This document shows positions 18,061-60,400 of a stretch of 64,000 nucleotides of DNA, piece after piece. Position 1 is the stretch's first letter. Each line of letters starts with the position of its first letter. The DNA is from Mesostigma viride (taxonomy: Eukaryota; Streptophyta; Mesostigmatophyceae; Mesostigmatales; Mesostigmataceae). The stretch covers positions 1 to 64,000 of the forward strand of contig RPFO01000864.1 in assembly GCA_009746045.1 (NCBI GenBank), in the 5' to 3' direction. A program made the position numbers and the translations under genes. Under the pieces are notes generated by a model. It did not search any database, was not told the DNA's origin, and worked only from the letters and a program-made list of their open reading frames with translations.

Positions 18061-19790
18061 CCCGTGTTTTTTTACAACGCGATACATCGCGTTGTAGGGT
18101 TAGAACGCGATGTATCGCGTTGTAATCTGACACGTGGCAAACCTATTAAACATGCGATTTTTGGTCTGAAACTTTCAAGATAGGTCAGAAACATCTCATA
18201 GAATTCAAGAAAAAATCCTGGTATTTTTGGTATTTTTTTTGTGACAGCTGCAAACAAATATGTACCACTGAAATCAGGCATTTTCGCGGGACGAAGGTGA
18301 AGACGACGGCGATGGCGGCAGGTAGATCTCGCCAGTTTTCGCGCGAATTTCAGTGGCTGTTGGGTGGCACGACCATGATGATGCGTTCAAAGGTTGATAA
18401 TTAGGTTTCTACGAGTTTGTTGAGGTACTGGGGCCGCAAAGGAAACGTAGTTTTTTCCAGTTTCTCACCCAACTTTCATGCGGAAACCCTGGAAACCGGC
18501 ATACATATTATTATGTCAAGACTCGGGTCTGCTGCGGCACCATGCTTGGTATTTCCATGGTGTTTCGACATGTTTATTCATTCCGAACGTCCGGACTCTC
18601 GGCTAAACCGAGAATTGTGCAGACTTTTATTGGGTAGCGCCGGGCATGATGGTGCCTGCAAATAGCGTAAGGCGTGACCGTGGCTATTGCTACGGGATTC
18701 TGTATTTTCCTGGAAATGGCCTCTGCCACCGGCTCAATAGTGCTTGCAGGCGTAAGTATATCGTGTTTCTACCTAGTTTCTGCCAGTTTTCCACTTATTT
18801 CTACCGACCTCTGCCCAGCCTCTCTAAGACCGCCATCCTACTCGACGTTGCTTGCATGTCAGCCATAGCAGGTTGCAGTTGTGCAGTATTTAGGTGCTGT
18901 ATACGTCGTCAAGCCGCGCATATATCGTGAGGATTGGATGTTGATGGTTTATACTGCGTTGATTGTGCAAGAAGACCAGCTAGGTGCCCATAATCATGGT
19001 GTATAATCATGTGTTGTTAGCATCTTGCCACCATTTGCTAGCATGCATTCCAGCGTCATCTTTGCCTGCATGTAAGCTCATGGATCACTCAACCTATCCA
19101 AGCCTTGCATTACACGTGCCTCTTTCTTTCAGTATTGCACGCGTTATGGAATGAAAACCCAGCACCTCCGTTCCCACGAGGCATGTGCTCAACACGTTGT
19201 GAGAGTGGATGATGCTTTGGCTATGGCTGCCTGATTCAGTCATATTAGGTCATCCAGTCATGATGTTTGATGCATGTTTGATGCTGTATAACTTATACAA
19301 CACCTATTTTCAACGTTTTGACCCTCCAAGCTCACTATGGCCCCGTTTATGGGGCTCATGTCGTTGCGTCATGTTGTGAAGGGCTCTCATTTTTCCCACT
19401 GCGTTGTACTGCGTTGTAATTGTGATGCTAATGAAAAATAGCTCCAGTGGCCCAATGGGCCTGAGTTTTGTTTCACAGAGCCTGCATATGTTGCCCATAG
19501 CTCGTGCAAGAAGCCAGATTTTTTTCATGAACCATTTGTGAATAAGCACATGACTTGTGACCTAGGGTCAAGAAATCGCGGTCATGGTAAGACCCCCCTG
19601 TATTCAAACCAGTGTATCTCTCTAATGAATTAGCATTTTGTAGGTCTGAGTAGCTCAAAAAATCCTTTGATTTATGGGCTTTCAGGAAAGTATATACATG
19701 ACCATGAAAAAAAATTTTCCTTAGGTGCTATACGCGTTCTAAAAAAAGCTTACAACGCGATATATCGCGTTCTAATTAAAAAAACACGGG
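18061..19790. mobile_element. TTAA-flanked non-autonomous element 1 (1730 bp)
   Basis: It begins CCCGTGTTTTTTTACAACGC and ends with AAAAAAACACGGG, flanked by TTAA at 18057-18060 and 19791-19794. Palindromes built on ACAACGCGATACATCGCGTTGT sit just inside both ends. The TTAA duplication and the CCC start fit the piggyBac superfamily. The interior has no transposase and no long open frame, so it must move in trans. It interrupts ORF1 after the codons for PPGL. Confidence 0.8.
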
Positions 19791-19922
19791 TTAATGCCTC
19801 GCCATTGGCATCGCCTGACCCTAAACGCAGCCGCCCAGCCGACAAAACAGGAGGGTTTTCACGCCCCACAGAACCGCGCTTTCGGCCCCAAGAGTGGTTG
19901 CGCTGGATTAGGACAAATTGCG

Positions 19923-21388
19923 GAAGGCATCAGAAGTGTCCTAAATGAAAAGTTGGCAAACATGGTTTTTTTATGCCAGGAGCATTTCAGAATATGTTTT
20001 AACAAGTTTTGTCAAGAAATTTTAATCAGCGCTTGTGTTTCAAGGAAAGTATTCCATGCTGTAATGCATATTTGCTATACACACTGTCTCCGACATGGCA
20101 TCATGATTGAAGATGCTGAGATCCTATGATTATAATACATATAATGCATTCATAATTCATTGTCTGGCTGAAATAAACATCTTTCATGCATGTATCAATA
20201 TCAATTCAGTGGAGAGACCATGCTGAGTCCGGCAAAGTTTGCACGCGGGATTATGCCATGTATTAGGATCACAGGTGCCGCCAGGTCTGCTAGCTAACGC
20301 ACAGGGTCGCGGCTTCGCGGCTTTGCGGAGTATGTTATATACCAACAATGCATGTGTTGGATCAAGCTCCCATGCGTCTCGACTGATCACAACAAACTGA
20401 ACCAAAGATGGATGCTACTTGGGAGCAACCGCAGTGGGCACCAATTGAATCAAGGAGCGGCAACGAGCATCATCGCCCCGCCTAATGGCGACGGCAGCAG
20501 CTAGCTAGCTACGCGGTTTATAAAAACGCAATAGTGCCAGAAGCAAACAACGGTTCAGTGCATGAATCACGAGTGTGTCCGCAATAGCACCGGTAGCAAG
20601 GATGATGTAAGACCGTGGCACTCGGGCAGTTACGGCACGCGGCAAGAGCAAATTGGCGCATAGTGGTTTAACGCATGTTCAATGGCCATTGCAAGTGCGC
20701 GAGGGTTGCAGCAACTATAGCACATTGCTTGCAGTGATGACAACGAGTCATAACATCATTGGTGACCCAGCCATTATAACTTCATTGTAGTTGTCAAAGC
20801 ATCAAATCAGTTGACTGATCAAATTTGGGAGATCCAAGTGCTAGCCATGCAGGGGAGCCAGCCATACAGGCCTGGAAATGCAACCCTGGCCCGGGCATCT
20901 GATCTAACCCAGTGGCTTCGAAGAGACATTGCCACTCCCTGTGGAATACTACGTCCCGACACCGCTTCAGTCACGCATGTCAGTAAAACCGGTTCGTCCC
21001 CTGCCTGGCACACAAGGCCGAGGCAGGTGGGAGGGAAGTAACGGTGAAACATAATAATGGTTTGGCATATATGCCACAAAATATGTCGGAGCCCAGCCCC
21101 CCGCAGGCCCCACCAGCCATGATGTGCAAGAATAAAAAACAGCGACACGTGAAGATGCAGCTAATAATGCTTGCAGCACCAGAGACGTATTCCACGTGCA
21201 ACCCCCCTCCTCAGCACTGGCCCCATCCATGATCCCTGGAATCGCAATGGGCAACCACGGAGCATAAGTGGCAGTAGCAAACACGGTAGCGTGAATGGCA
21301 CGAAGGGAATGAGTTCAGGACAGTGGTACAACCGCAACAGCATATAACAGCCGCAACAGCAGGATAAAGACAAGAACAACACCCATTG
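19923..21388. other. Left non-coding arm of the 11.84-kb element
   Basis: About 1.4 kb with no supported gene between the left terminal repeat and the 3' end of the DUF7869-like gene. Confidence 0.4.
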
Positions 21389-21563
21389 TCAATTGTATAT
21401 GGTAATATACAAGATATGTTGCCAGTGAATCCAATACGTGTCAGATCTATGCAGAAAGCCAGCCGGAGAAATGTCCATGGCACACATCACATATGAAGAA
21501 AGCAAAATTGCACGGCGACAAAAAAAAAAACTACTACCACGTGCTGATTGAAGACCAAGACGA

Positions 21564-25786
<4,223 letters not shown>

Positions 25787-25843
25787 TGTGCCTACTCCGT
25801 CAGCATTCTCCCTATCTGTAAACGCAACAACCTGGATTCCCAA

Positions 25844-26982
25844 CAGACTGCGATACTAGAAACTTCAAACCAAGGTACCTGGACGCAGCTACCCTACCAT
25901 TACTACCTAGCCACAACTGGTTATGTCACGTAGATTGGCCACCTCTAGTCTAGGTCCTGTCTGCTTCTGTCACCATTTAATAGCATCCGCATTTCATACC
26001 AATGATTCGTCCCCTGCAAAATTAATTCGCACAACAAACGCTACAGCAGATTATTAGCAGCCGGTTGTCTCACCTGCAGCACCTCTTTAAGACATTGTAA
26101 TAGCACTGATGACAGCGTGGCGTTGCTTGACAGACAATCATCATGCCTTCGGCGTACCTCTCACGCACATCAGGTTACAGTGTACAGTTTAGGTCGAGCT
26201 ACTGTATCGATGCCTGGCCTCCGCTGGGGAAGCCTTGTCCGCGGAGATACGATGCCTGGCCTCGGCTGGGGAATATTGTATACGTTGCCTGCCTCGGCTA
26301 CGGAAACCTTGTCCGCGGAGATACGATGCCTGGCCTCCGCTGGGGAAACCTTGTCCGCGGAGATACGATGCCTGGCCTCGGCTGGGGAATATTTTATAAG
26401 ATTCCTACCTCGGCTACGGAAACCTTGTCCGCGGAGATACGATGCCTGGCCTCCGCTGGGGAAAACCTTGTCCGCGGAGATACGATGCCTGGCCTCGGCA
26501 GGCTCGGCTGGGGAATATTTTATAAGATTCCTGTGTCGGCTACGGAAACTTTGTCCGCGGAGATACGATGCCTGGCCTCCGCTGGGGAAAACCTTGTCCG
26601 CGGAGATACGATGCCTGGCCTCGGCAGGCTCGGCTGGGGAATAATTTATACGTTGCCTGCCTCGGCTATGGAAAAACCTGTCCGCGGCGATACGATGCCT
26701 GGCCTCCGCTGGGGAAAACCTTGTCTGCGATACTTGTCTGAGATACGATGCCTTGTACTAGGAAACGGACACGAAGCCTGGCTTCGGAGATACTATAATG
26801 CCTGGGATCCGCAACTGTCACCTCATTCAAACGCCGGATCTCCCGCCTGAGCCGGGGCTCCAGCCAGTGCCTCCGTCTTGGAATGAATTTAACGCCGGAA
26901 ACGATGGTATTCGGTGCGGCTAAACGATTGTTGGCGATAATGCCGGAAGCAATGAGTAGTGCTGCGGAAAAGTGAGTAATAA
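25844..26982. promoter_or_regulatory. Divergent intergenic region of the 11.84-kb element
   Basis: It separates the two divergent genes and should hold both promoters (inference from layout). I cannot point to a core promoter motif. Half of it is the minisatellite listed separately. Confidence 0.35.
26207..26745. repeat. Compound minisatellite between the two divergent genes
   Basis: GATACGATGCCTGGCCTC followed by CGCTGGGGAA and CTTGTCCGCGGA is repeated as a ~55-60-bp module. Pairs of modules plus an AATATTTTATAAGATTCCT spacer form a ~120-bp higher-order unit seen at least three times. Confidence 0.9.
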
Positions 26983-29900
26983 ATGTCAGAGAGCAACGGT
27001 GATGCCTGCTTTGCAGGCGAAAAGTGTAGTGTCCATGTTCCCAAGAAAAGTCCTTATTTTAGGACCAGTTTGAATTAAAAAATATATGTGCAAACATCAA
27101 ATTTTGACCCTGGCATTTTTACCACTGACAGATAACACACTTTTTGAATTTTGGACAAAAACCTGGGTTCAAATAATTACATTTAGTGCCTGAATGGACC
27201 CTGGCCCATGGCAGGCCTCAAACCGCGAATTTGGTCAAAATGAGAATTTAGGACCAATAGGACCAATTAGTGTCAACGCATGACCATGCTATCCACACGG
27301 TCCCTTGAGCATCTTACAAGCGCTAGGGGACCCTACGAGGCCTTGGGATGGCGGGGCAGCGTATAACAAGGCCATACCCTGCTGTGGCTGCCTCTATATA
27401 TACGCGTGCTTCACGGTGTCACAGATGGTGCAGGTAATGCAATATACGGTTGCATGGTTGCTGAGGTTGCCCGGCTTGAACATGGCCCACCCCTTGCGGT
27501 AAACTTTCTCTAAGCATATGCCAAGCCTTCTTTGACATCACGGACATGCTGGCCACCACCCAGCGATGAAAAAACATTGCATTTGCATTGCAACTAACAC
27601 ATGAATGCAGCCAAATCAAGTTACAGAACAACGTTGTGCTAACATGCAACGCTTTGTGAGCGAATTCAGGGTGCATGTAACACCTAAACCATATTGTATA
27701 TACTGTCTGAGAACACCCTGAACAACTGCAGGCCATAGGACCATGGTTTATAACTAACACATGAGTAAAACTGCTCTTACGCATGTGTGTTTTAGCTGCA
27801 GCGGACGACGAAGATAGAGACGTAAAAAATTGTATGACGTAAACCAACTATGTGTGACAGTTATGTGCACAGAGAGCGTCCCCTCTTTTTAGGCATAGCT
27901 TACTGACTCAAAACACCACGACAGCGTTGCCAGTTACACTCATGATCTAGGGCACCCCGGCACGTACCTGCTACTTACGTCGCCTCATTCCAGATGGTTG
28001 CAAAAAAGTCGCTGAAATCCGCAGCGAGGTCAGCTTTCCGAGAGCTGAGCGCACCAAAGCTGGCCAACCGGTTCGAAAATGATATAAACCACGCTTGTGC
28101 TGCGTTCTAGGTCCAAGAAATACCGAAAGTGAAGACCTATAAGGTGCGCTCGCTGCCCAGCCTGAACGTCCCTAAAACATGGTCGACAATGGAAATCGGG
28201 CAAGAATATCACGGCCCAGGCGCTCCCATGTCAAATACTCCGTTTATAAACTCCAGACTATAATCAAAATCGTCCACAAAAATTTCCTGGCTTGATTCGC
28301 ACCACCATTGCTAATACACTAACATGTTTGTGCCAAAATCGACCCTCCGCGAGCAGGCGATCTGCGACCCATTTGTGTTGTGCCGCTGTGCTACAGCGCT
28401 ACACATAAAAACTTGCGCAGAAAATTTCACAGCCTTTAAGCATAACTAACGACCTTTCGTTTTTGCTACTGGGCGCCCGAAATGATAAACGCACGTGAAA
28501 ACGCCGGCCACGATTGTCAGGTCGCCATATCCACCTCAGATCATTCCCGCACCCACTTTTTCGCTCCAAAATCGGTTATATTTTTGGTCGAGGTACCTAC
28601 TTTCCCGCCATTATACCCGGTACCCGGGTACGGAATCCGGGTACCATGTGCCGGTACCACGGGTCGGGTACATCATGCCGGGTACGGTCCACATGGGGTA
28701 CGGTCCATATAGTGACCCCCCCCCCCGGTACCTCGGTTATAGTAAATTGGTCCTTAATTTAGGACAAAGTCCTAAATTAAGGACCGTGGGAGGCTTAACA
28801 GTAGGAAATTGGGAGGCGGAGCATCCGAGGATGGCGTTTCTAAGGAGGAGCTCTTGAGTGGCGCCAATCACCCATGCAGTGGGTCGTGTGGAAAGCACGT
28901 CCATGGGATATGCACGGGGCTATTCAAGGACCCAAGTGCTGAAGAAGGGGCAGAATGGATGTGCCCCGAATGTTTTGCTGGGTCGTCCAAGCAAGCCGAC
29001 CAGGAAGCGACTCATCATGTCGGCAACAACCCACGTCCCCCCCTCCCGGCCGGCATCAACTTTAATGCTCCAGTTTCCGAGGATGACCTGGCGGGGATGG
29101 TAGATCTTCATAGTAATTTGGGCGGGAAGGGCAAGGTTGCCGGGGATAAAAAGGACCGTGACGACAAGAATGACAGTGACGACAAGATGGTCGACAGTGG
29201 CGATGACGATCCGGCCAGCCGTGGTGCACACCTGGGTTCCTCCGACCTGACGGGGGACTATTCCATTGACAACGTGATGGAAAGTACCCCGGCCAACGAG
29301 CGTGGCAAAGGGTTCAGTCGCTCCGAGCTGGAGGATGCCAAGATGACATTGAAATTTCCTTCACCTGATCCACCCGGGTGCTCAAGACAATGCCGGTCCA
29401 AGGTCGAAATGAGAGCACCATATCTGTGGGGGGCGGGGTTCCTGGTTTTAGGGCCGAATGCGGGATCATGGCTCGGGCCGTCGTGAACCTTCACCCATGG
29501 AGGCAAAATGTCGGCATCATCTTGGGCGGCTGGAAAAACAAGACCATGAGCGCTCTGTTAGCCCGCGAAACGAAGAATTCGAGCTACAAGTCGTTGCTAT
29601 GTTCGTTTACTCCTTCCATGACCAGGCCCGCACCCACCGGCATCCACTTCCACAACCAAGTGGCACTCATCGTGGCCAACAACCCTCCCAAGTGGTGCGA
29701 TGTCCCTGGTGTAACGTTTCCGGGTAAATCCATCCCTGCAAACGCATGGAATGATGAAATGCAGGAGTGTTTGACGTGGGCCCAGGAGAACGAGCCCAAT
29801 TTAGTTGCCCTGATGGGCAATGCGCCCGTCCCAAGCATCCTGCTCAGTAACGCATTCCCGCAGCGGGCCACGATGGATCTGTGTGGTTCTCCTGATACGC

Positions 29901-31006
29901 CATCCCGAGAACGGCGGACACAAGACACCACCATGACCGATGCGGCACCGGCACCGCTCACGGATATCACCAACGCCGGGCTAGGGCGAGCGAAGCGAAT
30001 CACCGCCAAGCAGGCCTTCCAGCCCCCCCCCCAGATGCCAAGAAGCGCCAGCCGGAGAAACGGCGCCCGGGGCCGCAGCCGTTGCAGGAGGCCCTGCCCG
30101 GCACAACGCGAGTACCAACAGAAGTGCAGGCACAACTGGAGGGTATGAAACAGCAGCAGGCCCAGCTTCTGCAAGAGGTCCAGCAGCAGCACCGACAACT
30201 CCACTCAGCAGTTGCAGCAGCAACAACAACAGCAGCAACAACAGCAGCGGCTGCTGCTGCAGCAAATGCAGCAAATACAGCAACAGCAACAGCAGCCGCC
30301 GCCGCAGCAGCAACGACAGGGGAGGCGGCAGCAGCAGGCACCGGCAGCCGAGGCCCCGCCGCCAGAAGCCCTGCCACCACCAGCACCGGCGACAGCACCG
30401 CCTTGCCTGCCACCACCAGCAGCCGTGCCGGCACCGCCTTATTACCCGCCACCACCGGCATCCACGGCGGCACCGCCTTATTACCCGCCGCCACCGGCAC
30501 CCGCGGCGGCATCGCCTTATTACCAGCCGCCACCGGCACCCGCGGCGGCACCGCCTTATTACCAGCCGCCACCGGCACCCGCGGCGGCACCGCCTTATTA
30601 CCCGCCGCCACCGGCACCCGCGGCGGCACCGCTTTACCAGCCGCCACCGGCACCCGCGGCGGCACCGCCTTATTACCCGCCGCCACCGGCACCCGCGGCG
30701 GCACCGCTTTACCCGCCACCAACGGCAGCCGCCCAGGCACCGTATGCGCAGCCACCGGCACAAGCACTAGGATGGTACCAGCAGGTCCTGGCACCGGCAA
30801 CCGCGCCGGCACCGTTGACGCAGCCACAGTATGCGCCGGCACCATACACGCCGGCACCATACGCGCAGCCACCAGCAACTGCAGCCGCGGGATGGTACCA
30901 ACAGCCACCGGCACCGGCGACATCAGCGGCTGCCGCTTGGCAGCAGCCTCCCTCGATGACATTGGCATGGCAGCCGGCACCATTGCCGCAACCTCGTTAC
31001 TACTGA
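26983..31006 (+). CDS. PHD-finger / Gln-Pro-Tyr-rich protein of the 11.84-kb element (interrupted)
   Basis: ATG at 26983 opens MSESNGDACFAGEKC, which is cut at 27029 by element A and resumes at 28805. With one GTAG copy kept, the frame continues as RKLGGGASEDG. Only the joined form gives a full PHD-like set: C-x5-C, then CSGSC, C-x4-H-x2-C (GKHVHGIC) and WMCPEC. Next comes an acidic linker (about 29110-29340). The frame then changes near 29380-29450 into a segment with GIILGGWKNK and WCDVPGVTFPGK. It changes again at a C10 run (30012) into a basic/Gln-rich part, and near 30200 into poly-Gln and APPYYPPPPAPA repeats ending with TACTGA at 31004. PHD fingers bind histone tails, so a chromatin-targeting role is possible (inference). 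The frame changes may be short introns, mutations or sequencing indels. Confidence 0.6.
27030..28800. mobile_element. Element A: transposase-less relative of the piggyBac-like element B (1771 bp)
   Basis: It starts TGTCCATGTTCCCAAG and ends GGAGGCTTAACA. GTAG lies at 27026-27029 and 28801-28804 as a 4-bp target duplication. Its first ~260 bp and last ~300 bp are near-identical to the ends of element B (34810-37394), including the GGTACC-rich right arm and the TCCTTAATTTAGGAC palindrome. The interior differs and has no transposase. It splits the PHD-finger exon. Confidence 0.85.
30420..30725 (+). repeat. Coding tandem repeat APPYYPPPPAPAA
   Basis: Units of about 48 and 60 bp built on GGCACCGCCTTATTACCCGC and CCGCCACCGGCACCCGC, seven or so copies, encoding APPYYxPPPAPAA. 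Confidence 0.9.
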
Positions 31007-31700
31007 CCGTTTTCATGTGAAGCAACCGTTTCTTGATATGGCATTCCATTGACACTATATCTAGGCTATGTGTTGCACGGATGCAACATGCTATTAATTA
31101 TCTGGGCGTCCCGGTCATGGTAGGCTAGAGTATAATTTGTTCAAGAGGAACTCGGCGCAAAAGCCGCGGAGCTGTCTAGTCCAGGATATTGGACTGATTG
31201 ATAATAAGGGCGTTATTAGCCATGCACGCCCAACAATGTCTCTTTGGACATTTTAAAATATTATACATGCACCTTGGCCATTATAATTGGCGGCATGTGT
31301 TAGCACCAATAGCTCTGACAGTACACCCAAGTGCATGCATGCTACATCACTACCTCAAAATTCATTGTTGGTATTGAAATGTTTCCATGCCCGGGGAGGA
31401 CTTCATGCATTATGTGAGAAGATTGTATGAAATTACTGCATGGTACACTTCCCTGGCAAATACAATCACGTTCCGCGCATTAAAGTCATCGTGTCCACGC
31501 TCATGCATTATATGGAAGTAAGCATGACATCATGAAGGGCACCGTCACGAGCATCACCCGGTAAATGTCCTGCAGGGTGGTACCAAATAGGTTGAAAACA
31601 GTTGAATACGTAGGGAATCAATGTCAGCCACATATTGGCCCGTAAAAGGGACCCAAATCAACTTATTATCTTGAGTCGGCATCAAAAGTGTCCTAAATTT
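31007..31700. other. Right non-coding arm of the 11.84-kb element
   Basis: A/T-richer DNA without a supported gene. It ends with GGCATCAAAAGTGTCC and the right TIR. Confidence 0.4.
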
Positions 31701-32021
31701 CGCAATTTGTCCTAATCCAGCGCAACAACTCCAACCTTTCAAGGTCGACGATCACGACTGGACCAACATGTCCCCGGCAACTGCCCTGCATTGCCTCTTC
31801 TACGGGGACTACGCCTCGCTTTACGACCTGTGCCTCCATCTCTACGACATCAATCGCCTCCTCTGGTGGTATAACACCGATGTTCTGCTCGGGTGCACCC
31901 GCCCCCAACTCCAGCACACCATCCTCAACTCCCTTCTCATGCGCTCTGATGGCGAGATCCGGGCTCCATCCATCTCCGCCCCCACACTCCGTTCCATCCT
32001 TACCGAAGCCTTTCAGCAGCA

Positions 32022-32241
32022 GCGTGCCCGTGGGAGGCACGCCAGACAGCTCCCCTAGGGCAGCGTGCGGCTGTCTAGATAGATGTTGTAGTTAGAATGC
32101 TGTTAGATAGATGTAGTATGTAGCCGATGTAGATAGATTAGACCGGTAGGACTGTTTGCACCCATCCATCCATCCATCCATCGGGGTTAATGCTCCGTGA
32201 CTCCCCAACGGGAGCACGAGTCTAATTAATTAATTAATTAA
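32022..32241 (+). mobile_element. SINE-like retro-insert (220 bp) with 11-bp target duplication
   Basis: TTTCAGCAGCA occurs at 32011-32021 and 32242-32252, bracketing 220 bp that end in the hairpin CTCCC-CAAC-GGGAG (32201-32214) and a TAATTAATTAA tail. The target duplication, short length and simple tail mark a retrotransposed SINE or 5'-truncated LINE. A reverse copy of its 3' end is at 39342-39395. Confidence 0.8.
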
Positions 32242-34809: not shown

Positions 34810-37394
34810 TGTCCATGTTACCAAGAAAAGTCCTTATTTTAGGACCAGTTTGAATTAAAAAATATATGTGCAAACATAAAATTTTGACCCTGGCATTTTT
34901 ACCACTGAAAGATAACACACTTTTTGAATTTTGGACAAAAACCTGGGTTCAAATAATTACATTTAGTGCCTCAATGGACCCTGGCCCATGGCAGGCCTTA
35001 AACCGCAAATTTGGCCAAAATGAGAATTTAGGACCAATAGGACCAATTTCTATTTCGAGGTATAAAACACTAAGAACGCGACCGTTTGCGTGGCCTGCCA
35101 GCCCTGGACACCACAGGAGCCTCCCCCCCATGATGGCGGTTCCAGCAGTCCCGGTCCACGGCGAAGCTGCACACATTAATACGATGGCCGCCAGGGGGGC
35201 TGCAGGTGGCACAATAGTAGCCACACTTCTTCTTGCAGTAGGAGCACTTCTTCTGCTTCTCGTGCTGCCGCATGTCGTGCGCAAGGCCTGGCAGCGGGGG
35301 GAGGAAGGATCCCAGCGCCCTCTCACTTGCCACCAGCGGGGATGACAGAATTTCCACCGCCAGCGCCTCGAGGAACGTGTCCTGGCTGTCCTTGTCGTCA
35401 GCGAAGAACACCTTGGCCAGGTGCGCGTTGGTAAGGCAGATGCTCATGCACTCACTGCTCTCCCGCACCGCGGCATCCTTGGTGACCCACGCATCACTCA
35501 GGGCAATCTTGGCCCCCTGCCGCTTGTGGTTGTGGCAGTCGATGACACCGCTTTCCTTGCGGTAGATGGCCGTGACCTCGGGCTGTGTGGTCACCTTGCG
35601 GTGCTCCTCCTCCACACCTTGGGCATTGGTGGACAGCCACGTCTTGACCTGGTCTGGGCCAGCCAAGGTGGTGGAGCACGTTGAAACCAGCAGCATGGGC
35701 TGCTTGGACTGGTGCGCGACCGCGAACAGATTGCACGTGCCCACCGACGTGCGCGCCTCGCCTGCAAACGCCACGTGGCTGCCGCGCGGGCCCAGCGCAG
35801 CGAACAGCGCCTTCTTGGGGAAGTTGGAGTGGCCAGTCTTGACGTTGAGGATGGCGTACAGCCCGCGCTTCCACAGCTGCACCGCGGCCTTGCTGGAGCC
35901 GAACCACGAGTCGCCGAGGACGATCGATACGCCCCGAGCCCTTCCATGCCTCGGTCATGCGCATGGTGTTAGCGCAGGCGGGGCCGTACTCCCGGGCAAA
36001 GGGCTTCAGGGCCATGGCCGCAGCACCCTCCTGCACCTCCATGTGCAGCATGATCTTGGACTGCCCATCCGCCACCGTCTTCATCTCCCGGCCCAGCGGC
36101 TTTGGCTTCCTGCCCACCTTCATGAAGCCGGGCATGGCCCGGCCAGTCCAGGTGATCATGCTCTCGTCGCAGACGATGGTGTGGCCAGGCTGCAGCCCGC
36201 TCTTCCAGCACTCATTGATGGAGTCAATCCAGCGACGGCACTTCCAGAACGGGTCGGTTGCCTGGGTTCCTGGGTAGAAGGGCACAGCCCAGACAGCAGT
36301 CAGCTGTTGAAAAAGAGTGCGTGGCATATATCGCCCGAAATTGTAGATGACGACGCCGTCCTTCCGCCAGTAAGCGCTGACCCCGCCGGCCGCATGGTAG
36401 ACCATCATCAGGCAGCGCATTGCGATGTACGCCCACAGCAGGCCCACCGTGACCTTCCAGTCCTTGTAGCCGCGTGCCAGACCCCTCTCGGTCATCAGGT
36501 CCGCCATCTCCGGCAGCAGGTCGGTGGGAAAAAAGTGCTTGAACCAGTCCCAGTTGCTCGCGTCGGCGGGATCTGGACAGCAAAAACCCACCAATCTCGG
36601 CGGGTAGGTCGCGATGTGGCCAGCCATCAGGCGCCGGTCCTCGCGAATTGTGGTTTGCTGGACCCCCCAGGCTGGTAGGTCCATGGGCGCCGGCTCCTGG
36701 CCATCGCCCAGCTTGTACAGCCGCGCCCATAGCTCCTCGTCTGGGTCGATCACATTTTCATCCGGAAATTCATCATCGTCAGGTTCCGAGTCCTCCCCGG
36801 CAGCAGCGACCGCGCCCTGGTCTGGCTCTTCGGGATCAGACTCGGGATGGTTAGACTCATCGTCCGAATCATTTTCAGGCCCAGCCTCCACCCGCAAATC
36901 CTTTTTTTTTATTGCTTCAGTGCTGCCATCGATGTCCCAAGTGCAGGTAACATCCGACCGATCCACACTAACCACCACTCCCGAAATCCTAAACGTGCGC
37001 CAATTGACGCCAGCCTCAACAGCACGCTGGTAGGACCACCTATCTTCCCTTTTCTGGCCTGGCTCGTCAAAAAGATACGCTAACGCGCTTACACGAGCTC
37101 CGACCGTGAGGCCGCCATTACCGCGAGGCATCGTTCCCGCATCCACTTTTTCGCTCCAAAATCGCTCATATTTTTAGTCGAGGTACCTACTTTCCCGCCC
37201 AAATACCCGGTACCCGGGTACGGAATCCGGGTACCATGTGCCGGTACCACGGATCGGGTACATCATGCCGGGTACGGTTGACATGGGGTACGGTCCATAT
37301 AGTGACCCCCCCCCCCCGGTACCTCAGTTATAGTAAATTGGTCCTTAATTTAGGACTTTGTCCTAAATTAATAAGGACCGTGGTATGGCTAACA
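34810..37394. mobile_element. Element B: piggyBac-like transposon (2585 bp) with a transposase gene
   Basis: It starts TGTCCATGTTACCAAG and ends TGGCTAACA. CTAA occurs at 34806-34809 and 37395-37398. The target duplication reads up to 7 bp (ACACTAA) but is consistent with the 4 bp seen for element A. It contains the frameshifted transposase gene on the minus strand. The right end carries GGTACC-rich sequence and a TCCTTAATTTAGGAC/GTCCTAAATTAA palindrome. Confidence 0.85.
35070..37131 (-). pseudogene. piggyBac-like transposase (DDE_Tnp_1_7), one frameshift
   Basis: ATG at 37131 (MPRGNGG) to TAG at 35070-35072 gives about 686 residues if one base is removed near 35938. Residues 1-80 form a small beta-rich N-terminal part; 85-130 are acidic. 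The core follows from FKHFFPTDLLPEM: VCDESMITWTGRAMPGF (about 320, first catalytic Asp) and, in the shifted frame, VLGDSWFGSSKAAV (second Asp). VIDCHNHKRQG then precedes the C-terminal cysteine cluster CSYCKKKCGYYCATC..CSF..DCWNRHH, as in piggyBac transposases. The shift after WKGSG separates the two catalytic Asp residues, so as written the enzyme is broken. A one-base assembly error would explain it equally well. It would mobilise elements A and B (inference). Confidence 0.8.
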
Positions 37395-47726: not shown

Positions 47727-50503
47727 CTAATAGCCCTGCTGCACCGCAAAATCAGCCCGCGTACGGCGGAGCATGATGTCCGCCATGGCCCGAGTCAGCG
47801 CCACCGACAAGCGCTGACGCCAATATGACGTCCAGGTCCGCGCCGACCATGGGGCCCGCTGGCCCTCCAGGTCCAGCCGGTCCTCCCGGAGCCGGCAACA
47901 CTCCTTGAAGAAGGCGGAGGTCAGGGGCCCCATGGCCCCAAACTCCTCCAGGACAAAGGGCACCACACGATGGTGCCCGACGTCGCCGTAGGCCAGGAGC
48001 TTGGCCCGCTCCGCCCGGTCCGCCGTGTAACCTGCCGTGAGGGAGGCCCCAGCCACGTGGCTAAGAGCCAAGGGCCGCGCCACCGAAACGTCAATAAGCA
48101 GATGCCGGCCACCCCCCTCAAAGTCCAGCACCACGATGTCAGGCCGGTGGTTGGGGGAATAGAAGGCAGCGCCATCCGCATCCTCGGACCGGATGTTCGC
48201 GTGGGGGAAAACCGACCGAATCATGGCGAGCACCACCGTCAGGAGGACAGTGTGCAAATACAAATACCAATTCTGATTCTGTTGGCCCCCCATGCAGGCA
48301 AGGTAGTGAGTCCCCGTGGGATCCAGCGGCTGCCCACAGCTACCACAAGGCCGCCCGGCCGGAACAAGAGGCTGCGGGGCAAATAGCTGGTGCCGGAGCG
48401 CCACCGAGTAGTGGCTGGGAGCCAAGGCGAATGGGGGGGCCATGGGAAGAGCACGAAGGTACGCCGAGCCCACACTCCGCAAGGAAAGCGAGAACAGCCA
48501 CGCACGTCCCTGGGCGTTGAGGTCCGCGAAAAGAGCAATCCAATCAGCCGTGTGCAGAATACCCGCGTAGGTTTTCTGGTGTTTATCGATGACGCGAGCA
48601 GGGAATGCGGCGGGAGATTGAACGGAGGCGACCGAGGGAGTGCCGCGAGGGAGGTGGCGCTGTACCGCCTGAGCGGCACGGACGGGAGAACAGGCCTGCT
48701 GGATCTCAGCATAGGCCTCCTGGATGGCGGTGACGAAGGGCAAAGGGCTGCTGGGGTCCAGGAGGTCAGGCGCTGCCGTTGCCAAAAGGGGCAGGAGCCG
48801 GCAGCTTTCCGCCCACGACTGAGCGACGGAGCCCAAAAAGGCTGCTGGGGCCAGCCGGGCGGCACGAGTCAGACCGCAGCCACCCATCCGTGCAGGCAGG
48901 GAGGCAATGCGAATAGCATGTGGCGGGAGGTCGGGGCCCGGGACCAGCTGCGCCAAGGCCGACTGGATGCGTTCGTCGTGGCCCTCGGCGGCCAGCCGGA
49001 CCTGAGACGGAAGAGCGCCCCGGAGCCAGTGAACGACGCGAGGGTGAGCGCAAAACCACAGAAGCAGACCCTTGGTCTGCGAATCATGAAGGCGCGCAAT
49101 CAAGGGCAGTACCTCAGTGCGTGCCTCGAGGGCGGCCCGCAGAGCATCGATGACAAACGCGGGGTCGCCAACCGGAACGCCGAGGACATCCAACCCATGG
49201 AGGCGCTCGTCCCGGCCCAAGAGCTGGGGCGGAAAGCCGGAGCAATCACCTTGGGGCGAGTACACCGCGCACTTGGCAAGGGTCAACTGGAGGTTGATGT
49301 CGGCCACCGCGGTCTGCAGTGCCAGCAGAGCCGCGGTGGTGTCCGGCACAGGGCCCAGCAGGTAGATATCATCCAAGTAGGCCTGAATAGCGACCGCCGG
49401 GTGGGCAGCATGGACCGCTTGGAGGCAACCCTGGAGGGGGGCGGCAAAGTACAGGGGTCCCAGGGGGTCCCCTTGCTGGGTGCCCGACCGCGACAGCAGG
49501 CCGCCGCGAGTGCCGTCCTCCATGATGTGAACCAGTTGGCCGGGCTGGCCGTAGCACACGGCTGTCCAAGCGTACAAGTCCTCGAAGGACTCCATGACGG
49601 CCGCAAACATGCTGGCGCGGGACAGACTGTTGAACGCGTTGTGGCAGTCGACCTTGACGACAGCGTGGGTGGGGTGGGCCTCGAGGTAGGCCTGCACCGA
49701 ATGGATGAGGATATCCGCCCCGCCTGGAGTCGTCACCCCCAGCTGGGCCGCCACCGAGGTCTCACCCGCTGCGAGGGGCGGGCAGAAAAAGGCACGGAGC
49801 TCGGGCGCCTTTTGGCGGCAGATCACTTTGCCCACGAGCTTGCGGAGCACCTCACCGCAGGCGATCGGGCGCACCTTGCCCTCGGGGGGGGCAAGACACC
49901 CTTGAGCAGAGCGAGGAGGCGAGCGCCCGCTAACCACTCGCGCGCAGCGGGAGGAACGCGACCAGCCGCCAGGTCAATGAGGGTGTCAAAGAGAATGTCC
50001 TCGCCCCCATGCCCCACCAGGACCTCCAAGTGCTCGTAGCGCCAGCCCGACGGCCCGGTAGAGGAAGCCCGCGGGACCTCACGCATCACCTCCAGGAAGC
50101 AGTCGCGGTCCAGCCGGAGGGGGGCCGGCAGGGGGTCCGGCACGGGCAGCTGGAATCCGGGCTCCGCAGGGTGAAGAGCCTCCAAGGCCGCCAGGGTAGC
50201 CGCATTGGCGGGGGCGAGCTTGGCCATTTCCAAGCGGGTCATGGCCCGGCTGAGCTGCCCCTCGCGGACGAGGCGGATGACGTCGGCGGCCACCCGCTCG
50301 AAGTTGACCTCCCCCGACAGCCGGGCCGTGCGCGGGGGCGGCACGCCAAACAGCCCCTCCCAGTCCCCCTGCAGAAAGCGTCGGCAACGGGCAATAACCG
50401 CACCCTGGAGGCCGCGCACACCACGCCCGAGAGGGGTGAGGAGCAGGCGGGGGGTCACCATGTGCAGTTTAAAGCCCAGCGGGTCGTCCGGAGCGGCGTG
50501 CAT
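47727..50503 (-). pseudogene. LINE reverse transcriptase with C-terminal PD-(D/E)XK-like domain, one frameshift
   Basis: ATG at 50503 (MHAAPDDPLGF) to the stop at 47727 gives about 925 residues if one C is added to the C8 run at 49884-49891. The shift falls between LLALLKG and EGKVRPIACGEVLRKLVGK (conserved RT block). Downstream are KVDCHNAFNSL, GTQQGDPLGPLYFA and AYLDDIYLLG, the catalytic YxDD. After a thumb-like region comes CGSCGQPLDPTGTHYLAC, a zinc-knuckle-like motif, then RPDIVVLDF and HLLIDVSVARPL, which fit a restriction-like PD-(D/E)XK nuclease. This layout occurs in LINE families common in green algae. The 5' end is probably truncated. The UTR ends in TA-rich sequence near 47590. 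Confidence 0.85.
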
Positions 50504-57435: not shown

Positions 57436-60400
57436 ATGAGCAAACGCCCATCGACGCAACGCAGCCTGACGGCTGCGCTCGGCAATGAAAATACGTCTGC
57501 AGCTCCGGCTGCAGCTTCGCCATCAGGGCCGGAAGGCAGTGGTGACACTAGTCGCGCACTGGTGGCCGCCCAGAACCCTCCCGGGCTTCCTGCCTCGCCA
57601 TCGGCCTCGCCAGACCCTAAACGAAGCCGCTCATCCTTTCCACGCGAACCGCGTTTCAAGTATCACTCCTTCCATGCCGACGATCACGACTGGTTCAACA
57701 ACATTTCTCCGGTCGCTGCTATGAAATGCATTTTCTTCGGGGACTACGCCTCGCTTCTTGAGCTGTGCATCTACTTTCACAGCATCCGTCGCCTACTGGA
57801 ATTTGACGGCCGTAATTTTACACAGAGCCGCGAACTGCTGCTGACGGGCTTGTACCCCCGGCCCGAGCTTCAGCACATGATTCTTTGTTCCCTGCTGACG
57901 AAGTCTGACGGCGAGATCTTGGCCCCCACCATCTCCGCAGCCACATACCGCTCCATCCTCACGGAAGCCTTTCAGCAGCACGTGACCCCCCTTGCCGCAG
58001 ATGTGGCGGCAATGGGCGGCACGCTGGCTACTGAGCTCCCTCACATTTCCACCACCGTCACCTCCACCTCCACCCTCCTCACCTCCACCTCCACTGCCAC
58101 CTCCACCTCCACCGCCGACATCAAAGCCCAGCTCCTCGACATCGACCAGCGTCTTAAGAACAATGCCATCGCTATCGAGGTCCTGCAGAACACCGCAGGC
58201 CTCACCGCCCAGGCAGTGAAGGACATTGCCGCCAAGCCAGCCCCGGCTGGCCTGACCGGCGATGCTCCTCCCATCACCACCTGGGCGGACATGCTTAACC
58301 CCTCATTGGTCTTGCAGCCGATTTTCCGCCAAAAATCGACTTGCAGCCGATGCATCGGCTGCTCCGCGGGGGACCAAATTGCGCGAAAACTATTGAGAAT
58401 TAGGAAACGTTTAGCTGAGAAGATCGAAAGTTTATAATTTTCCTCACAGCATGGTACTAGGGTTCGCATACTTCTGACAAAGTTATAGAGGTGTTCTGGC
58501 CGGTCAAAGTACAAGGGGTCAGGGTACTTTTTCACGTAAAACGTGCATTCCGGAAAACGACGACCTGGCCATGGCGGCTTGCGCCCACGCATGGAATTTA
58601 CGTTTGCGTTCGAATTTTCTGGCCAAACTTAGGAAATTGATTTTATACGTCCTAAAGATCACACAGGCCAATTTTTGGTTCGCGGGAATGCCATTTGATA
58701 GGTGTCGGCAGCGTTCTTGCTGGAAAAAACTGCGATCAGGCCGGACGATAGAAACGTTGACAGCAATACCTTTACGGCGTATTTTAAAGGATATATTGGT
58801 TTCTTTGTAGTTATTATGATACATATTAGTCGTAAACGTGCAAGGGTGGCAAGAAATCGCCGAATCTAGCGACCATGCTGCACAACTTTGGTGTGCCGAA
58901 ATGCGCCATTTTGCGGCCACCGCCTGGGCCAAGGTAACGCCATCCATGCCTGGTAAAGCTTCAGCATCGTTTTCCTATCGATGTTTGACGTTTATATATA
59001 CGTTCTAGCTTGTGTAGCACATTCTTTTTGCATTATTCATGCTCTTTCTTGACCCTGGCCTGGCCCCTTTCTAAAACACCCTTCTTAGATGCTTCCCTCA
59101 GTCAGTTGACCTGCCACAGTGTGATGGTGATAAGTTTTAGATGCTGTATGGGTTTGAATACCTCCATATATGTTTGTTATACATTTCCCATACACATATT
59201 GCATGATTGTGAGGCAGTTGGCTGGTCTCTGTGGCATCATCAAGCACGTAACTGGTGAGTAAAAGCTTCCCATTGACAGCATGTGCCACCAGGTGTGCTG
59301 GCCATCACCTGGCAAGCTATAGCAGCTTAGGCCTAGTTTATCCTTGCTAGGGCAGGCTGAAATAGGCTCAACGTCACTAGTTTGTTGGTGGCTGCCTCCT
59401 ATAATGTATGCCTTGCGTAGGGTATCCGTACCACGTTACCTACGTGCATGGACAAGGTGGCACCTGCACATAGGTGCCATGTAAGGGCAGTGTGATGATG
59501 CAGTTATGTTTCCCCATCATTGTGGAAGGGAAATGTATTGTATGGCATGGTTGGGGGCCATATTAGTAGGTATTAGTAGTAGGTAGTATGCCCACCCCTA
59601 CCCCCTTGGTTGCTTTTTACCAACGGTACCCCTATGGGCTGTACTGGGTGTAACTGCTGGTATACCCACCCAAATGATGACCCCAATGGCTCAAACTGTT
59701 CAGCAACTAATTGTTTATCATCCCTGAAGTGGTAGGTGCCTAGTAGGTCTAATAACATAATTCAAAATGCACATTCTACCAAAAATGAAAACGCGCGTCT
59801 CGACCCCCCTAACTTTGGCGGTAGTTTTCTATGGCCTACCCTGCAGATATGTTAGGTTGTGATAGCTCACCCCGAAGGGCAACTCATGGACATGCTTGAC
59901 CCCCAAGGACAGCCCTTGGATGTTGGTAGGTTGGCTGTGGGGTGGTTTGCAAATTTAGCATTTTGCAGCCGATTTTTCGGCTTTAAATGGGACCAATGAG
60001 GGGTTAAGCAACACACCACCTCCACCACCTCCGCTGTCGCAGCCCAGCTTCAACGGCAGACGCTTGACCTCCGCGAGGAGGCCGAGCTCGCCAAGCGCAG
60101 CCTCAACGTCATTGTCAAGAATCTCAAGATGGAGGAAGGTGAGAATTCCGAGAAGCTTGCGCGTGCTTTTGAGAGAGAAATCCTTGATCGCATGGGCTTT
60201 ACTGGTGAGATCGAGCTGGCCGCCCACCGCCTTCCCCGCGCGCGGGGTAAGGCAGGGCCGCCCCCGCTCCTTCTCACCTTTAAGACCCCGGCGGACAAGA
60301 TTTCTTTTCTCCGACGCCGCAAGCGGCTCGAGAAGACTCTCTTCACCCTTGACGACGACTTGACCCTGGCGCAGCAACAACGGCGACGGGAGCTATGGCC

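Follow-up and report, generated by a model that had tools for sequence, protein, structure and literature searches.

A transposon of Mesostigma viride with 3-bp target duplications and a divergent DUF7869/PHD-like gene pair, a candidate for an undescribed DNA-transposon lineage

RAG1-like/RAG2-like transposons, of which ProtoRAG is a further example, are the described systems nearest in layout to the element reported here, an insertion at positions 19892-31731 of a 64,000-nucleotide stretch of the streptophyte Mesostigma viride (GenBank assembly GCA_009746045.1, contig RPFO01000864.1, positions 1 to 64,000; hereafter the window), and the resemblance is one of layout only. In the RAG1-like/RAG2-like elements (TransibSU/TransibVDJ), the genes of both proteins stand head-to-head and one of the proteins has a PHD finger; one sea urchin RAG1L/RAG2L locus is described as ~10 kb long with a 4493-bp spacer (passages of PMC4411706). 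The window element shares the head-to-head two-protein layout, with genes for a DUF7869 protein and for a protein with a PHD-like finger. It differs in its GAG ends, in a PHD-like protein that has no Kelch match in Pfam, and in its 3-bp target duplications, the duplication of Transib being 5 bp. No match to RAG1 or Transib was obtained in Pfam or among PDB chain sequences, searches that included no direct RAG1 profile comparison, and a C(2)C...H(3-4)H arrangement was not found in the large protein of the window.

Other described groups share further traits with the element. KDZ (Kyakuja-Dileera-Zisupton) elements are described as giant, with a very long transposase (PMC12477816), and as having duplications of 7-8 bp (PMC12730594). 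The window element also encodes a very long protein, but its duplication is 3 bp and no KDZ profile was matched in Pfam at E up to 1. C48 peptidases are partners in KDZ elements, and one DUF7869 relative (L073, see below) has a Peptidase_C48 match slightly under the cut-off. A PHD finger and a minisatellite occur together in Rehavkus, a Mutator-like group described with one open reading frame (ORF) and 9-bp duplications (PMC6446971); the window element resembles it in combining a PHD-like finger with a minisatellite and differs in having two genes and a 3-bp duplication, and no Mutator profile was matched. Duplications of 3 bp are likewise described for Zator, and of 3-4 bp for AcademX (PMC10045372), but no related Pfam profile (Zator/ISAzo13-type in the case of Zator) matched the proteins of the element, no direct sequence comparison having been made.

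We read the element as part of a lineage of terminal inverted repeat (TIR) transposons whose defining protein is a DUF7869 transposase, joined in many families by a divergent PHD-like partner, a reading to which we give a probability of about 0.72. The element is a real TIR transposon with 3-bp duplications. Its TIRs are 31 bp each with one mismatch, as the preliminary description of this DNA had it, and end in GAG...CTC (left, 19892-19922, plus strand, GAGTGGTTGCGCTGGATTAGGACAAATTGCG; right, 31701-31731, minus strand, read inward from 31731 to 31701 as GAGTTGTTGCGCTGGATTAGGACAAATTGCG). A 25-bp TIR core, searched with up to three mismatches, occurs at two places in the window, namely at both ends of the element, where 0 are expected. 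Directly inside the TIR lies a 21-bp box, GGCATCARAAGTGTCCTAAAT, which is recognisable in 22 copies whose ends were compared and altered in some. Both boxes are on the plus strand (19926-19946, GGCATCAGAAGTGTCCTAAAT; 31678-31698, GGCATCAAAAGTGTCCTAAAT); as they point in one direction, the ends of the element are asymmetric and not equivalent. The copies of the target duplication, CAA, lie at 19889-19891 and 31732-31734. When the flanks are joined with one CAA, an open frame is regained (...PRFRPQPFKVDDHDW...), to which a paralogue at 57592-57978, PRFKYHSFHADDHDW, is 55% identical in a 136-column alignment. A joined-flank query of 197 bases was searched against the host assembly (440 Mb, 2243 contigs) and crosses the junction in 40 of 40 places scored out of 1848 candidates, at 93-98% identity. 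Thus, the insertion was precise and duplicated 3 bp, which bears out the earlier claim that removal of the element restores the interrupted frame. The target itself (19634-19891 and 31735-32058; also 57592-57978) is a repeat that is abundant in the genome and has a DDHDW motif.

Copies with these ends are spread across the genome: 36 matches were obtained for the left end (101 bases) and 37 for the right end (100 bases), and the TIR pattern with up to three mismatches has 73 matches, as against 2 for the reversed control. Twenty-eight copies could be paired, including that of the window, and 25 have equal 3-bp flanks. This count combines 20 of 22 in a first script-paired set, 5 of 5 in a further set, and C113, which the script left unpaired, whose flanks are unequal by eye and which was counted as a failure; the other copies with unequal flanks are C1690b and C1502. 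The chance of 25 equal triplets in 27 at 1/64 each is P ~2e-43. Unpaired ends, such as those of C1802, C1635, C782, C1468, C1, C1912, C80, C2202, C667, C1702 and C1801, and further ones on C2156, C2 and C113, were left out of the duplication count. The 25 target triplets include 20 distinct ones, follow no strict rule and show a mild A/T bias (65%). As in class II elements, TIRs thus bound the unit in many copies, with a duplication of fixed length and precise empty sites.

The ends compared are GAG...CTC apart from one left end, GAC, and fall into two subfamilies. The variant GAGTGG/GAGTTG, defined by GAGTGG left ends, comprises 13 complete copies, 11 of them with duplications; a PHD match is present in all 13 and a DUF7869 match in 12. 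The second subfamily (mostly GAGGTG ends, ~90% identical) comprises 14 complete copies, all with duplications, and among the eight tested by tblastn a PHD match was found in each and a DUF7869 match in none. The proposed linkage of these TIRs with both genes therefore stands for the GAGTGG copies and fails for the tested copies of the second subfamily. Seven near-full copies measure 9.9-10.2 kb, and the eight long copies, counting that of the window, agree in 99.7-99.95% of their aligned bases; the transposon was apparently active recently. Shorter relatives look non-autonomous. Two with the same TIRs, C1921 and C1835 (4.1-4.2 kb), hold PHD frames that are open over 689 and 717 residues, and six copies of ~2.56 kb with the same ends are 98.7-99.6% identical among themselves; in the two of these that were tested, C1881 and C2111, a 34-residue PHD match is left and DUF7869 was not found.

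The DUF7869 gene, the candidate transposase gene, lies on the minus strand at 21389-25786 with its ATG at 25786. Its protein matches Pfam DUF7869 (PF25273) with 53.1 bits, above the cut-off of 26. All 150 scored PF25273 matches in the host genome exceed the curated cut-off, and there are none in 14 control genomes. The motifs DKxDxxK, QxDGGSENRN and GHTHxDxDQKFG are shared without change by the window protein and four genome pieces (two of them near-identical) that are 47-63% identical to it. A distant protein, P0003 (1162 residues, 25% identity), has DGMDQ, QVDGGSENAN and GHTHEDIDGVFG in their place, so that DxxD, QxDGGSENxN and GHTHxDxD are kept as far as this relative. In the numbering of the ORF from 25855, the candidate catalytic residues of the window protein are D399/D402, D494 and H529/H531/D533/D535, with acidic residues spaced by 94 and then by 38-40. 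The conservation of these D...D...HTHxDxD residues across families and in the distant relative suggests that DUF7869 is a DDD/E-type transposase. Furthermore, non-synonymous divergence (dN) between DUF7869 families is 0.29-0.66 and synonymous divergence (dS) is at least 1.5 or saturated; hence, purifying selection acted on the domain. Two split relatives filed under bacterial metagenome-assembled genomes, L073 (JABEUL010000099.1) and L074 (CANJPX010000132.1), look eukaryotic. L073 has DGMDQ and a third motif GHSHDDDD; its middle motif was not seen and falls between two open frames.

The second gene, at 26983-31006 on the plus strand, encodes a protein in which Cys and His follow, by eye, the order C-X5-C, C-X3-C, H-X2-C, C-X2-C with a tryptophan ahead of the last pair, a C4HC3-like finger whose first pair is CX5C. 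The other Pfam match of the protein is a low-score one to LMBR1. A histone-reading role of this protein would be in keeping with its finger. A short-frame family (154 residues), 48-49% identical to the PHD-like protein, occurs at 22 places, e.g., C347:237520, C1579:5422137 and C2000:878223; 20 of these lie more than 20 kb from any scored DUF7869 locus, and they may be PHD-only mobile units or domesticated copies.

Linkage of the two genes was counted genome-wide among scored matches, that is 150 of 275 DUF7869 candidates and 138 of 386 PHD candidates, the latter found with the N-terminal 280 residues of the PHD-like protein at 30-100% identity. A PHD match lies no more than 20 kb away from 89 of the scored DUF7869 loci, where random placement predicts ~1.9, and the nearest match is head-to-head in all 89. 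The distance between match starts has a median of 3.5 kb, is at most 3.7 kb in 90% of the pairs and reaches 18.5 kb. By score and frame length the DUF7869 loci form several multi-copy groups, and the linked loci are distributed over groups at 62.5 bits (51 loci), 57.2 bits (11, the family of the window element), 63.5 bits (10), 56.7 bits (7) and 63.4 bits (5), with five single ones. The divergent pair with a minisatellite in between, which the preliminary description had singled out, is thus present in the window, but the pairing of the two genes is not peculiar to this element. As the genome holds this pair at dozens of further loci, the element may belong to an undescribed lineage of DNA transposons.

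In the window copy both genes are damaged. The intergenic region between them (25787-26982) contains the minisatellite, with a unit of ~126 bp (26203-26729), and other long copies have one too. The C-terminus of the DUF7869 protein is encoded by repeats at 21682-22408 (117/210-bp units, TCC and TCA runs); here the frame diverges from that of other copies within the acidic repeat, and the common C-terminus (...APAEALEA) lies in an open frame at 21564-22259. Longer DUF7869 frames of 1446-1469 residues, alike in ending, are found in C2074, C1668 and C887. The PHD-like gene is split in codon 16 by a nested non-autonomous element of 1,771 bp (27030-28800) with a 4-bp GTAG duplication, which does not belong to the transposon proper, and shows a later frame change relative to C1956, where a 735-residue PHD-like frame is open. 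Positions 27026-28800 are missing from all seven other long copies aligned with the window copy. The true unit is therefore 10.0-10.2 kb (about 10.1 kb) long, and the 11.84 kb first proposed for it includes the nested 1.77 kb. The nested element is a non-autonomous derivative of an element at 34810-37394, to which its first 239 bp are 97% and its last 261 bp 92% identical and which encodes a DDE_Tnp_1_7 (piggyBac-like) ORF. Both have ends TGT...ACA and 4-bp duplications, GTAG and (by eye) CTAA, respectively, which differ from the TTAA of piggyBac. Elsewhere in the window, at 47727-49973 on the minus strand, lies a 748-residue ORF with a reverse transcriptase domain (42.7 bits).

Several observations weigh against reading the element as one of a lineage with a DUF7869 transposase. 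At E up to 1 there was no match to any known DDE profile, and the structures predicted for DUF7869 are poor (predicted local distance difference test, pLDDT, of 39.6 and 50.0) and gave no meaningful fold match. The near-identical pieces L069 and L072 differ by five non-synonymous and one synonymous change, which at that depth is no sign of constraint. The PHD-like protein scores 15.6-18.5 bits (18.4 in the window) against the Pfam PHD finger (PF00628), below the cut-off of 24. Among the DUF7869 families, TIRs and 3-bp duplications were read for that of the window element alone. Many of the 89 linked loci are copies of fewer families and hence not independent cases, so that the score groups have to be taken as the independent units. 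At least three pairs are more than 11 kb apart (C1690:686583, C1857:1437538 and C1579:9487694), of which the last, the 18.5-kb pair with a partner from the PHD-only family, may be incidental. Moreover, for 61 of the 150 DUF7869 loci no PHD match was scored up to a distance of 20 kb, and in C1921 and C1835, with their long open PHD gene, no DUF7869 was detected by tblastn.

One alternative is that DUF7869 is cargo or an accessory and that the PHD-like protein or an unlinked transposase moves the ends. The second subfamily, 14 of the 27 script-paired copies, with PHD and without DUF7869 in all of its tested members, would fit such an arrangement, as would the 43 of 138 scored PHD matches that lie farther than 20 kb from every scored DUF7869 locus. 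We nevertheless consider it improbable, for DUF7869 is a long protein with invariant, enzyme-like acidic residues, the relatives that lack it look like trans-mobilised derivatives, and it is multi-copy even where no PHD match was scored: such a match is missing near 16 of 17 loci of a multi-copy group at 57.1 bits (mostly 753-residue frames) and near 13 of 13 of another at 51 bits (585-residue frames). A different doubt concerns novelty. The label DUF7869 is recent and older records would not carry it, so the lineage might already be catalogued, be it in Repbase or elsewhere, under an established or an unfamiliar name and hence not be new. We regard this as somewhat unlikely; in the literature searched, which left Repbase and Dfam outside, DUF7869 occurs in no paper, and among the titles listed none names a PHD/transposase element of such a kind.

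Membership in EnSpm/CMCT or in PIF/Harbinger appears less probable still. EnSpm/CACTA and CMCT elements have duplications of 2-5 bp. They are described with termini 5'-CA...TG-3' "in most cases" and, in CMCT, with two motifs, C(2)C and H(3-4)H, that lie between the second D and the last E (PMC12730594), and giant EnSpm elements that carry accessory genes have been reported from algae (PMC12477816). The window element could accordingly be an outlying EnSpm/CMCT (CACTA-like) element whose transposase has merely diverged, and its 3-bp duplication, its length and its accessory gene are compatible with that. However, its ends are GAG...CTC and not CA...TG, no EnSpm profile was matched in Pfam, and with D494 as the second D there is no CxxC in the following 300 residues, the sole HxxxH (HPYKH at 682) being far downstream; a placement here is thus quite unlikely. 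The two-gene layout and the 3-bp duplications would also suit a relative of PIF/Harbinger (PHIS), a group described with TWA-type targets and a Myb/SANT protein as second ORF (PMC4482050). Yet the 25 duplications fit no TWA, TNA, ANT or CWG rule, the partner matches PHD weakly and Myb/SANT not at all in Pfam, and no Harbinger profile was matched, which makes this affiliation very improbable. The earlier judgement that the element is not assignable to a known superfamily is supported in so far as neither profiles nor hallmarks place it in EnSpm or Harbinger.

For the lineage defined by a DUF7869 transposase, the termini, the stagger, past movement and the gene linkage can be read in the DNA itself, and from them we infer the catalyst, the cut-and-paste chemistry and the part of the PHD-like protein as follows. 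DUF7869 would be the transposase that binds the TIR and the inner box, and its putative D-D-D type active site would excise the element and insert it into target DNA at cuts staggered by 3 bp. The PHD-like protein might act in an accessory role, recognising histone tails and so controlling or directing insertions, and copies without DUF7869 would be mobilised in trans. Given the poor structure models, and with ends read for the GAG-ended family alone, the lineage is a candidate new superfamily, albeit one with a serious chance of being so. More tentatively, and at somewhat below even odds in our estimate, DUF7869 would mark an undescribed superfamily of eukaryotic DDD-type transposons whose members often carry, in this genome, a head-to-head pair of transposase and PHD reader, an arrangement reached independently of RAG1-like/RAG2-like elements, so that the coupling of a transposase to a chromatin reader would be a recurrent solution.

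Should DUF7869 be a transposase, a domain hitherto without an assigned function would gain one, and predicted eukaryotic genes that carry it could be reinterpreted as mobile or domesticated. With near-identical copies and precise empty sites, the system is testable now. The recurring head-to-head pair would offer a non-RAG system for testing how a transposase is guided or curbed by a chromatin reader.

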